Assembly (NCBI RefSeq): GCF_016756745.1
Contig: NZ_JAESIH010000061.1
Coordinates: 1-64,000 of the forward strand
Source of the DNA: Aminivibrio sp.
GTDB lineage: Bacteria; Synergistota; Synergistia; Synergistales; Aminobacteriaceae
Length of the DNA stretch: 64,000 bases
Direction of reading: 5' to 3'
Position 1 is the first letter of the stretch. Each line of letters begins with the position of its first letter. The notes below the pieces were generated by a model. It made no database searches. It was not told the origin of the DNA and saw nothing but the letters and a program-made list of their open reading frames with translations. The position numbers were made by a program, and so were the translations under genes. Positions 26,189 through 54,789 of this stretch are shown here, in pieces.

Positions 26189-26302
26189 TCCGGGGAGTCC
26201 GTTGAATCTCCTTGCCGAACACGGGAGGCCCGCCTGTTTCCGGACGGACCCTGACGGCCCGCCGCCGTGGGAAATTCCTGTAGGAAGACGGGCTCGGAGA
26301 TA
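26185..26302 (-). promoter_or_regulatory. Candidate Moco/Tuco-family riboswitch aptamer
   Basis: Read on the minus strand, the leader has CTCCGAGCC (26291-26299), a GGCGGGCCTCCCGT segment (about 26222-26235), GGCAAGG, and CAACGGACTCCCCGGAG (about 26188-26204). These blocks and their order resemble the conserved core of molybdenum/tungsten-cofactor RNAs as I remember it. The 3' end overlaps an intrinsic terminator, the usual expression platform. The downstream gene is a tungstate-binding protein, a fitting target. I could not run a covariance model. Confidence 0.65.
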
Positions 26303-26384
26303 AGTCTATTCTTTTGATTTTATGATACCACGGAAGGGCCTGTTTTGTTACCTCACCCGGCGGATTTTCGAAATTTCTGTTCAT

Positions 26385-51153: not shown

Positions 51154-51349
51154 TGAGAAATATCCTCCCCTCCCCGGTTACGGGAAATATATTCTTATTT
51201 TACGCCATCGATGGAAAAAGATCATGGGGCAAATGGAAAATCGGTGAAAAAGCGGTTCTTTCCCAAATCTGTCTCAAACAGCTCCGCAAAGCCCTGGAAA
51301 TTCAGGGTGCTATTTTTTGATTTCGATTTATTTTGGACAGCAGTGACCT

Positions 51350-51990
51350 CATGTTTTATGTGGCCATGGGGGAATGACCGTCTTTTCCATAGCCGCCGGA
51401 CGGCGCCCCTTCTGCCCCATTACGGATGCCTGCCGGCCCCTTTCATGACGGCCGGGCGTTTTCCCTGCGACAATGATATTGGCAAGGCTCCCCACGATGA
51501 GCAGGTTCCCTGCGAAAGTGCGTGACACCGCAAGAATATACCCGGCCTCCGAAATGTCCCGGACCAGGGGCAGGAGAAGCATGACCGCGGACACGTTGGA
51601 CACCGGGTTTGACAGGACGGTGGTCAGCCCGTAGAGCCGGGAGGGAGCCACGAGATCCCGATGAAGGGAGGTGAAGAGAAAAAGGAGTACCACCGTCCCG
51701 AGGACGGGTTCTTCCCTTCGCCGTCTGCCATGCGTTGAAGGGCCGTTCCGGCTCCTCCTTCACCGCCCTGGGAAGAAGAAATTTTCCCCGGAAGAGCACG
51801 AGGACGATGCCCTGGAGAAAGAGCAGCGAAAGGGCGGTCGGCAAGGGCGGCAAAGACCAGGTATCCCCCGAAGGGAAGACCGAGGTACTGGCCGATGAGC
51901 ATGTCCTGGGGATTGCCGATGAGCGTCAGCGCCGAGCCGATGTTCGCGGAGCAGGCCAAGAAAGGTCGCCGGCCTGCTCCGGGACTCCGG
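51350..51990 (-). pseudogene. Fragment of an ArsB/NhaD-type anion transporter
   Basis: Minus-strand pieces in different frames read as one transporter: ACSANIGSALTLIGNPQDM and GLPFGGYLVFAALA, then ALSLLFLQGIVLVLFRGKFLL, then YGLTTVLSNPVSNVSAVMLLLPL and FAGNLLIVGSLANIIVA. These match the second half of the ion-transporter superfamily that includes ArsB, NhaD and SLC13 proteins. The N-terminal half is missing and at least two frameshifts interrupt it. Confidence 0.75.
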
Positions 51991-52034
51991 CTTCGCGGCA
52001 TTGAATTGAAGTGAAAAGTCTGTCATTAACAGCC

Positions 52035-52063
52035 TTGACAGCCCTCAAGAAAGAAGGTACCAT
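52035..52063 (+). promoter_or_regulatory. Promoter of the attenuator leader
   Basis: Consensus -35 TTGACA (52035-52040), 17-base spacer and a weaker -10 TACCAT (52058-52063), about 50 bases before the leader-peptide start. Confidence 0.55.
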
Positions 52064-52110
52064 CTCCTCCAATATTCAGACAGGCATATCGCCGGAAAGG
52101 AGGATACATA

Positions 52111-52194
52111 ATGAGAGCTTCACGGTCTTCCCTTGTTCTGCTCCTCGTACTTATCATTATTGGCGGTCCCCCTTCCGGTGGGTTCGGCACCTGA
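52111..52194 (+). CDS. Branched-chain amino-acid leader peptide
   Basis: A 27-residue ORF with an excellent AAAGGAGG ribosome site. It encodes ten consecutive branched-chain codons (residues 8-17, LVLLLVLIII) followed by GGPPSGG. This is the layout of ilv leader peptides, where ribosome stalling on Leu/Val/Ile codons senses charged tRNA. The antiterminator and terminator that complete the device follow directly. No ilv or leu gene is found downstream. Confidence 0.8.
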   Translation: MRASRSSLVLLLVLIIIGGPPSGGFGT

Positions 52195-52250
52195 GCCGTA
52201 CACCAGACACCGGAACCGGGGACCGCTTTCAAAGGGGTCCCCGGTTTTTT
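52165..52250 (+). promoter_or_regulatory. Attenuator: mutually exclusive antiterminator and terminator
   Basis: GGTCCCCCTTCCGGT (52165-52179), inside the leader ORF just after the Ile codons, is complementary at nearly every base to ACCGGAACCGGGGACC (52209-52224). The latter is also the 5' arm of an 11-bp terminator stem (52214-52224 with 52236-52246) followed by six T. Stalling on the branched-chain codons would leave the antiterminator free to form and allow read-through. Confidence 0.78.
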
Positions 52251-52306
52251 GTGGCTTGTTTTCGGCCTGTCATTATCTTTTTTATTTCGGAAGGGAGATG
52301 CAGAAA

Positions 52307-52531
52307 ATGGAAAAGAAACACACCGGCATGATGGAAACTGGCATGAGGGAAACGGAAGGACAGTGCGAGTTTTACCGTCGGGACGACCGGCACCTCAACG
52401 GCATGTTTTCAGTCAGTTGGAGGGGCCCTTTTGAAGGCTTTTCCGCAGTGAGGAAGGTGGAGGCTCCCGAACCAGCCTCCTTTTCGCCGTCTGAAATTCG
52501 GTGGAGAGGCCCCTTTGAAGGCCTCCGCTAG
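52307..52531 (+). CDS. Possible 74-residue ORF behind the attenuator
   Basis: An open frame starting MEKKHTGMMETG, with GGAAGGGAG about nine bases upstream. It contains a duplicated heptapeptide WRGPFEG, once in the middle and once at the C-terminus, matching a 21-base imperfect DNA repeat. A stem GGAGGCT / AGCCTCC plus four T (52459-52484) lies within it, so the region may be RNA-regulatory rather than coding. I recognise no family. It is the only candidate target of the attenuator in the window. Confidence 0.35.
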   Translation: MEKKHTGMMETGMRETEGQCEFYRRDDRHLNGMFSVSWRGPFEGFSAVRKVEAPEPASFSPSEIRWRGPFEGLR

Positions 52532-52540
52532 AGGAAATAA

Positions 52541-52570
52541 GGGGAGACCTCGCCACATGCGGGTCTCCCC
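52541..52570 (+). terminator. Hairpin between the small ORF and tag
   Basis: A 9-bp stem GGGGAGACC / GGTCTCCCC between convergent genes; T-runs on both sides are short, so strength is uncertain. Confidence 0.55.
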
Positions 52571-52577
52571 TGTATTT

Positions 52578-53156
52578 CTACTGTCCCGCGTCCGGATGCC
52601 GGAAGCAGGAAACGAGATGGTCGTTTACAAGCCCTGTGGCCTGCATATAGGCATATGCTATGACGGGACCGAAGAACACGAACCCCTCCCGCTTCATGGT
52701 TTTGCTGATGTTCTCCGCCAAGGGAGTGACGGCCGGAATTTCCTCAAGGCTTTTCCACCGGTTGACCACCGGCTCTCCGTCCACGAATCCCCAAAGAAAG
52801 GATGAAAGGGACCCCTTGGCCTCCCGAAGGCGGAGATACGCCCTGGCATTTTTCACAGCTCCCTCGATCTTTCTCCTGTTCCGGATAATCCCGGAATCCT
52901 TAAGCAGGGCATCTATCTTTCCCTCGTCGTACCGGGCGATTTTTTCCGGGGCGAAGCCGTCGAAAGCCCGCCGGTACTCCTCCCGTCTCCTGAGGATGGT
53001 TATCCAGGAGAGCCCCGCCTGGGCTCCCTCAAGAAGAAGGAATTCGAAGAGCTTCCCGTCGTCGCGGACAGGCGTCCCCCACTCCTCGTCATGGTAGGCC
53101 ACGTAGAGGGGATCGGAACCCGGCCAGGGACACCGGGCGAGCGTACCGTCCGCCAT
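52578..53156 (-). CDS. tag: DNA-3-methyladenine glycosylase I
   Basis: A 192-residue Tag protein: RCPWPGSDPLYVAYHDEEWGTP at the N-terminus carries the zinc-binding Cys and His, EGAQAGLSWITILRRRE forms the helix-hairpin-helix region, and a C-terminal NDHLVSCFRH gives the remaining ligands. It removes 3-methyladenine from DNA. It lies four bases downstream of nifU and may be co-transcribed. Confidence 0.94.
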   Translation of the reverse strand: MADGTLARCPWPGSDPLYVAYHDEEWGTPVRDDGKLFEFLLLEGAQAGLSWITILRRREEYRRAFDGFAPEKIARYDEGKIDALLKDSGIIRNRRKIEGAVKNARAYLRLREAKGSLSSFLWGFVDGEPVVNRWKSLEEIPAVTPLAENISKTMKREGFVFFGPVIAYAYMQATGLVNDHLVSCFRHPDAGQ

Positions 53157-53159
53157 GGC

Positions 53160-53591
53160 TCAGGCGTGGTGATGGGCGTGGCGGTCCACCAGTTCGTCGT
53201 GGCTCTCCTCTTCCCATACGGGAAGGCCCCTGTTCCTCCTGTAGTTGTTTATGGCGGCGTGGATGGCCTCCTCGGCGAGAACGGAGCAGTGCATCTTCAC
53301 AGGCGGAAGTCCGTCAAGAGCCTCGGCCACCGCCTTGTTGGTGAGATTCCATGCCTCCTCCACCGTTTTGCCCTTCACAAGTTCCGTGGCCATGCTCGAC
53401 GAGGCTATGGCCGAGGCGCAGCCGAAGGTCTTGAACTTGATGTCAGTAATGACGTCGTTCTCCACCCGCAGGTAGATCTTCATGATGTCGCCGCACTTGG
53501 GGTTCCCCGCCTGCCCGACTCCGTCAGGGTTCTCTATCTCTCCCACGTTCCTGGGATTCTGAAAATGGTCCAGCACCTTTTCGCTGTACAT
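53160..53591 (-). CDS. nifU: NifU/IscU-type Fe-S scaffold
   Basis: A 143-residue scaffold with three conserved cysteines: NPKCGD, FGCASAIASSS and MHCSVLAEEA. The C-terminal tail is His-rich (DRHAHHHA), which may bind metal. It starts five bases after nifS. NifS delivers sulfur to it for cluster assembly; this minimal two-gene system without IscA or HscAB is common in anaerobes. Confidence 0.95.
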   Translation of the reverse strand: MYSEKVLDHFQNPRNVGEIENPDGVGQAGNPKCGDIMKIYLRVENDVITDIKFKTFGCASAIASSSMATELVKGKTVEEAWNLTNKAVAEALDGLPPVKMHCSVLAEEAIHAAINNYRRNRGLPVWEEESHDELVDRHAHHHA

Positions 53592-53595
53592 GAAA

Positions 53596-54789
53596 TCACC
53601 TTCCTCCTTCTCTGCTCTTAAGGTAGTCCTCCCAGAGGGGAGACATTTCCCTTCGATGCTTCACGATCCCGGGAAGGGTCGAGAGGACATACCGTATATC
53701 TTCTTCCGTGGTTTCCTCGCCGAGGGTGAGGCGGAGGGAACCGTGGGCCTGTTCATGGGACAGGCCGATGGCCATGAGCACGTGGGAGGGATCCAGGGAT
53801 CCCGAGGAACAGGCGCTGCCGGTGGACCCGTAGATTCCCGCCCCGTCCAGGTCGAGGATAAGGGTCTCCCCTTCAATGCCGATGAAGCTGAAGTTGGCGT
53901 TGTTGGGAAGCCGCTCTCCGGAGGGCGCCCCGTTCAGTTTCGCGTGGGGGATGCTCTTCATGACGCCTTCCACGAGCATGTCCCTCAGCCTGCCGATCCG
54001 TGCCGATGCTGTTTCCATCCTGCCCGCCGTCATCTCGATGGCGGCGCCCAGGCCTACGATCCCGGGCACGTTCTCCGTGGTGGCCCGCCGTCCTCTTTCC
54101 TGTCCCCCGCCGTGCATGAAGGTGTCAATCCTGACACCCTTCCGTATATAGAGGGCCCCGACGCCCTTGGGTCCGTAGAATTTATGGGCCGAAAGGGACA
54201 GAAGATCGATGTTCATGGCCTTCACGTCGATGGGCACATGGGCCACTGCCTGAACCGCATCCGTATGGAACGAAATCCCCTTTTCCCTGCAGAAGGCACC
54301 GATCTCCGCTACCGGCTGCATGGTTCCGATCTCGTTGTTGGCGAACATCACCGACACAAGAACGGTTTTGTCCGTCACGGCCTTCTTCAGGTCGTCAAGG
54401 CTGATGCGCCCTTCGGCATCCACGCCGAGAAAGGTCACGTCAAAGCCGTTTTCCTGGAGGAACTGGGCCGTGTGGAGCACGGCATGGTGCTCAATCTTTG
54501 TAGTGATCACATGGTTGCCCTTTGAACGGTTTCTCCACGCCACGCCTTTCAGGGCCCAATTGTCCGACTCGGTTCCCCCGCTGGTAAAATAAATCTCTTC
54601 CTTCGAGGCTCCAAGAACATCCGCTACTTTCTGCCGGGCGGCTTCGATAGCCTTCCTGTTCCTTTCGGAAAAGGAATAGATGGACGAAGGGTTACCGAAG
54701 GATTCGGTAAAATAGGGTGCCATGGCGGAAACCACTTCGGGCGCTGTAAAGGTTGTTGCGGCATAATCGAGATAAACCTGCCTTGACAT
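53596..54789 (-). CDS. nifS: Cysteine desulfurase NifS
   Basis: A 397-residue PLP enzyme of the NifS/IscS class: YLDYAATT at the N-terminus, IEHHAVLHT, LSAHKFYGPKG with the PLP lysine, RRATTENVPGIVG, and GSACSSGSLDPSHVL with the persulfide cysteine. It supplies sulfur to NifU and probably to MnmA. It follows the Rrf2 regulator by 24 bases in a regulator-nifS-nifU-tag unit. Confidence 0.95.
   Translation of the reverse strand: MSRQVYLDYAATTFTAPEVVSAMAPYFTESFGNPSSIYSFSERNRKAIEAARQKVADVLGASKEEIYFTSGGTESDNWALKGVAWRNRSKGNHVITTKIEHHAVLHTAQFLQENGFDVTFLGVDAEGRISLDDLKKAVTDKTVLVSVMFANNEIGTMQPVAEIGAFCREKGISFHTDAVQAVAHVPIDVKAMNIDLLSLSAHKFYGPKGVGALYIRKGVRIDTFMHGGGQERGRRATTENVPGIVGLGAAIEMTAGRMETASARIGRLRDMLVEGVMKSIPHAKLNGAPSGERLPNNANFSFIGIEGETLILDLDGAGIYGSTGSACSSGSLDPSHVLMAIGLSHEQAHGSLRLTLGEETTEEDIRYVLSTLPGIVKHRREMSPLWEDYLKSREGGR

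Follow-up and report, generated by a model that had tools for sequence, protein, structure and literature searches.

A branched-chain amino acid attenuator of Synergistota with a conserved small protein as its probable dedicated target

Introduction

Attenuators are textbook switches of amino acid biosynthesis operons, and the ilvL, leuL and ivbL leaders of Escherichia coli are ribosome-mediated attenuators of branched-chain amino acid (BCAA) genes. The locus described here resembles such BCAA attenuators in having a leader whose Leu/Val/Ile codons form a run, in the opposition of antiterminator and terminator and, probably, in being read through upon shortage, but its target appears to be a single small protein instead of biosynthetic genes, and its leader tail (GSPPG or GGPPSGG) encodes an arm of the antiterminator, a lineage-specific feature. 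Other ribosome-mediated BCAA attenuators include that of ilvBNC in Corynebacterium glutamicum (PMC11857589) and actinobacterial leaders (PMC1262725). The control of a small metabolic effector protein by an amino-acid-sensing RNA has a counterpart in cyanobacteria, where the glutamine riboswitch controls gifB, encoding the glutamine synthetase inactivating factor IF17 (PMC6316151). This is a functional analogy only: IF17 is under a ligand riboswitch, whereas leader translation would be sensed here, and the partner of IF17 is known, whereas that of the protein considered below is putative. PirA, a small regulatory protein of cyanobacterial metabolism (PMC8092223; reviewed in PMC7760959), provides a further functional analogy as a short protein adjusting metabolic flux, but it is regulated differently and there is no family match between the two proteins. 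In the open-access literature, searches for the RGPFEG motif and for BCAA attenuators in Synergistetes/Synergistota returned no description of the element or of the protein. An intergenic-region survey that included Thermovirga lienii (PMC6429828) links uORF candidates to shikimate genes, and its main text mentions neither a BCAA attenuator nor the small ORF described below.

The stretch analyzed, hereafter the window, comprises 64,000 nucleotides of Aminivibrio sp. (GCF_016756745.1, contig NZ_JAESIH010000061.1, positions 1-64,000 of the forward strand), and the unit under study lies within 52035-52577.

Results

Anatomy and conservation of the attenuator

All features of the unit are on the plus strand. 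The sigma-70-type promoter, TTGACA-N17-TACCAT (52035-52063), has an exact TTGACA in 32 of 32 homologous units and is followed directly on its 3' side by the conserved element AATATTCAGA (52071-52080); counted in a loose form, an AT-rich TTCAGA-like element follows the promoter in 27/32 small-ORF units versus 2/24 ilv/leu attenuators, a contrast whose P value exaggerates its weight, the sequences compared being related to one another. The leader peptide, MRASRSSLVLLLVLIIIGGPPSGGFGT (27 amino acids, 52111-52194), has the Shine-Dalgarno (SD) sequence AAGGAGG upstream, is found in all homologous units and carries ten consecutive Leu/Val/Ile control codons, LVLLLVLIII (52132-52161), which a six-frame scan for residue runs identified as the sole run of at least eight I/L/V residues in the 64-kb window. 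Folding, covariation and the folds of homologues support an antiterminator at 52163-52226, formed by the pairing of 52163-52171 with 52218-52226 and of 52173-52180 with 52208-52215 and enclosing an apical hairpin around the leader stop, with a minimum free energy of -41.7 kcal/mol versus a shuffled mean of -25.0 (z -5.8). Folding also predicts an intrinsic terminator at 52212-52250, with a stem (52212-52224/52236-52248) followed by six T (52245-52250) and an energy of -27.8 versus -15.1 kcal/mol for shuffled sequences (z -5.2). The arm 52212-52224 is common to both, creating two overlapping and competing structures. These results confirm the anatomy proposed in the initial annotation, from the promoter through the 27-residue leader, the ten-codon run and the antiterminator to the six-T terminator, and the antiterminator coordinates given there were correct. 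Among the Rfam leader and attenuator families, none matched the attenuator above its gathering score; the sole Rfam match in the window is a molybdenum cofactor riboswitch (RF01055) at 26192-26311 on the minus strand (73.5 bits).

When the leaders of the 32 units were folded, a strong terminator was present in each and most folded directly into the long antiterminator, a minority of the sequences ending before the antiterminator 3' arm. In the alignment, 84.6% of cells at the antiterminator positions are paired, versus 35-55% after a shift of the partners by 1-3 columns, and double changes number 57 cells versus 23.7 in shuffles that ignore relatedness; by these comparisons, the antiterminator pairing covaries. 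The initial annotation had let its reading depend on conservation of the leader codons and of the competing stems, and both are conserved among relatives. The marks of an attenuator were found together in this element, namely a short leader that can be translated and contains consecutive cognate codons, mutually exclusive antiterminator and terminator structures downstream of the control codons, and occurrence of the same element before BCAA biosynthesis genes in the lineage.

A family of small proteins with RGPFEG motifs

Downstream of the terminator, the SD sequence GAAGGGAG (52290-52297) lies 9 nt upstream of the ATG (52307) of a gene encoding 74 amino acids plus stop (52307-52531), an alternative ATG at 52298 giving 77 amino acids. 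A protein search of 60 relatives recovered homologues in eight, from four genera and with 55-91% identity; every homologue of the family has an SD-like sequence ahead of its start. Invariance among homologues is seen in RR-x-DRHL-type residues and in WRGPFEG, which occurs twice; in the window, the two copies correspond to an internal copy (52418-52438), seen in the homologue alignment and in the structure model, and a C-terminal copy, WRGPFEGLR (52502-52528), supported by the alignment and by the phylum-wide pattern described below. Between the small ORF and tag, which converge, lies a hairpin (52533-52577; -31.3 kcal/mol, z -5.9), a probable bidirectional terminator. A candidate terminator inside the small ORF (hairpin at ~52458-52487) was rejected as weak (z -1.2).

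When the phylum was searched with a profile, further weak matches emerged, many of them short ORFs in which RGPFEGxR immediately precedes the stop. RGPFEG-x-R-stop, written as a degenerate DNA pattern, then occurred at 33 sites distributed over 31 of the 188 Synergistota genomes, 14 genera and five families, and its reversed control matched nowhere in the same 188 genomes. The invariance of RGPFEG and of the final R in this set is partly ascertained, because the pattern fixes these residues; the pattern placed no requirement on an upstream attenuator, and all 33 ORFs sit behind a promoter, a Leu/Val/Ile leader and a terminator. The attenuators number 32 because one genome, G052, has two tandem ORFs behind a single attenuator (locus L087, contig C251, minus strand), followed downstream by another attenuator and leuC. 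Two short peptide patterns were also run against 84,980 prokaryotic genomes; among the matches listed, all confirmed relatives belong to Synergistaceae/Synergistales, and 41 further pattern matches are candidates beyond them. Comparisons of the small protein with Pfam, NCBIfam and PDB chains gave chance-level matches only and assigned no family, and tblastn against phage and plasmid collections gave none or chance-level matches.

Pairwise dN/dS ranged from ~0 to 0.19 for the pairs in which it was computable, synonymous differences being near saturation in the more distant pairs and the synonymous codons of the motif varying as well. Because synonymous sites vary while the protein is kept, the target of selection is the protein rather than the DNA alone. 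The initial annotation had called this ORF doubtful, a view contradicted by the homologues in relatives and by purifying selection; on this comparative evidence, the 74-residue ORF is a real gene of a new small-protein family. The protein would be dispensable, since G026, whose genus includes two carriers, has no detectable copy. Its AlphaFold2 model is of low overall confidence (pLDDT 63, pTM 0.26), with an N-terminus below pLDDT 50 and a short beta-hairpin at the first motif. The mean I+L+V content of the small protein is 9.6%, versus 14-28% in nine neighboring proteins of the window, the homologues in G008 and G035 being exceptions at 21-22%.

The same attenuator elsewhere in the BCAA regulon

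A covariance model built from the small-ORF units and run at a permissive cut-off matched 125 of 188 genomes. Most of the best matches read outside the small-ORF units precede ilvN-ilvC, in many cases with leuA or ilvB next, and others precede leuA, ilvD, leuC, panB, a 2-oxoacid:ferredoxin oxidoreductase subunit or transporters. In the genome of the window itself, the attenuator precedes ilvN-ilvC (contig C97) and leuA (contig C43). Judged by this distribution, the attenuator is an ordinary BCAA switch of Synergistota. Since the same type of attenuator stands before ilv and leu genes, the small ORF counts as a BCAA regulon member that stands on its own, and the lack of ilv or leu genes behind it is the conserved state.

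Leaders of apparently one design, but enriched in other codons, were also observed in Synergistota. Those upstream of ABC transporter genes, probably of methionine type, are rich in Met codons, those upstream of a homoserine-dehydrogenase-like gene in Thr codons, one upstream of panB in Val codons and others in Phe or Tyr codons, many of these leaders having a (C)GSPPG-like tail. Examples are L121:1471-1563 (contig C62 of the same genome as the window), L177, L193, L178, L191, L186 and L189, and no description of one attenuator design for several amino acids in Synergistota was found in the literature searched. Further attenuator-like leaders, rich in Ile/Leu or aromatic codons, lie before related putative transporter genes (L173, L175, L179, L185 and L194), for which the N-terminal piece tested had no Pfam match.

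Neighborhood of the unit

Upstream of the promoter lies a decayed CitMHS-like transporter pseudogene (51349-52001, minus strand) with internal deletions relative to related copies; in a close relative, an intact copy of 428 amino acids (L047:3347-4633, minus strand) is divergent from the attenuator. Over 51958-54000, the segment that holds the attenuator, the ORF and tag, close relatives are colinear with the window at 88-90% identity. The initial annotation had taken the pseudogene as a sign of deletion or rearrangement, and deletions are indeed apparent; they are, however, confined to the transporter and leave the attenuator unit untouched. From these alignments, the transporter decay is a separate matter, next door to the regulated unit and not within it. 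The genes beside the small ORF differ across genera, and no constant neighbor or partner gene was identified.

Discussion

Taken as a whole, the initial interpretation is partly supported. It had offered either an orphan switch left after operon loss or control of a new small protein, and our analyses favor the latter: the unit is very probably a complete ribosome-mediated BCAA transcription attenuator whose dedicated target is the conserved small protein. That the attenuator switches, and in which direction, we infer from established knowledge of attenuation. When Leu, Val and Ile are plentiful, the ribosome would pass the control codons and reach the stop codon (52192-52194), covering the 5' arm of the antiterminator, so that the terminator would form and RNA polymerase would stop near 52250. 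When charged tRNA for any of the three is scarce, the ribosome would stall at 52132-52161 and the antiterminator (52163-52226) would form, allowing polymerase to continue as far as ~52577, where a monocistronic unit would end, and the 74-residue protein to be made. The small protein, being poor in Leu, Ile and Val, could be made during a shortage of them, although this composition could also be a consequence of disorder.

Other readings of the locus can be weighed against this one. That an ilv or leu operon once stood downstream and was deleted, leaving a fortuitous ORF, would fit with the adjoining decayed transporter and its deletions, but the same unit recurs in 14 genera, where the small ORF stands in place of any ilv/leu target, the segment around it is colinear with close relatives (none of which has ilv or leu genes behind the leader either), the ORF is under purifying selection and the ilv/leu operons of the same genome have separate attenuators elsewhere, making this reading extremely unlikely. 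The read-through RNA could itself be the product, acting as a regulatory small RNA with an incidental or secondary ORF; the predicted free-standing transcript of ~500 nt with a strong hairpin at its end and a conserved element at its 5' end would suit such a role, whereas the free synonymous variation within a conserved protein and the SD sequence maintained before each ORF argue for translation, and we regard a small RNA as very unlikely, a dual-function RNA being a possible variant of it.

Two alternatives accept the ORF as translated and give its product another role. If RGPFEGxR stalled the ribosome just before the stop, the ORF would be a second leader or arrest peptide acting in cis, in line with the position of the motif directly before the stop in 33/33 ORFs (a count partly ascertained by the pattern) and with the genome carrying two such ORFs in tandem. 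On the other hand, the unit in the window ends in a hairpin followed by a convergent gene, downstream genes vary between genera and internal motif copies lie far from the stop, rendering an arrest peptide improbable. A variable N-terminus and a repeated, fixed C-terminal motif would also be expected of the precursor of a modified or exported, RiPP-like peptide with a repeated core, but no recurrent modification or export gene occurs in the neighborhoods listed and the protein has no family match, so that this origin seems even less probable than ribosome arrest.

Returning to a dedicated small-protein target, its function can be addressed only tentatively. An ilvC match is absent in 10 of the 31 small-ORF genomes, including the single-contig G008 and G035, and a partner specific to the KARI-dependent ilv pathway is therefore unlikely. 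We consider it possible, at somewhat less than an even chance, that the protein is largely unstructured and acts as a regulator, its RGPFEG copies being docking sites for a partner protein that probably belongs outside the KARI-dependent ilv pathway; such a protein would be bivalent where two motifs occur. A stretch containing GPF in IlvN, considered as mimicry of the motif, was dropped, being also present in genomes without the small protein. The broader proposal, put forward a shade more cautiously still, is that a mostly disordered family with one or two RGPFEG docking motifs may be a dedicated effector of the response to BCAA starvation in Synergistota; produced through ribosome-mediated attenuation, its members would bind a partner protein and thereby tune BCAA uptake or catabolism.

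Across Synergistota, many of which are amino acid fermenters, a textbook switch would thus be dedicated to a small protein that is absent from the family libraries searched, and together the attenuator and the protein point to a hidden branch of the amino acid starvation response in this phylum. Since it is retained even where ilvC is not detected, the protein may serve to curb or reroute the use of BCAAs and not to support their synthesis. The regulatory signal and the motif offer a direct handle for a partner search, and "orphan" attenuators in other genomes may likewise mark unannotated small proteins.
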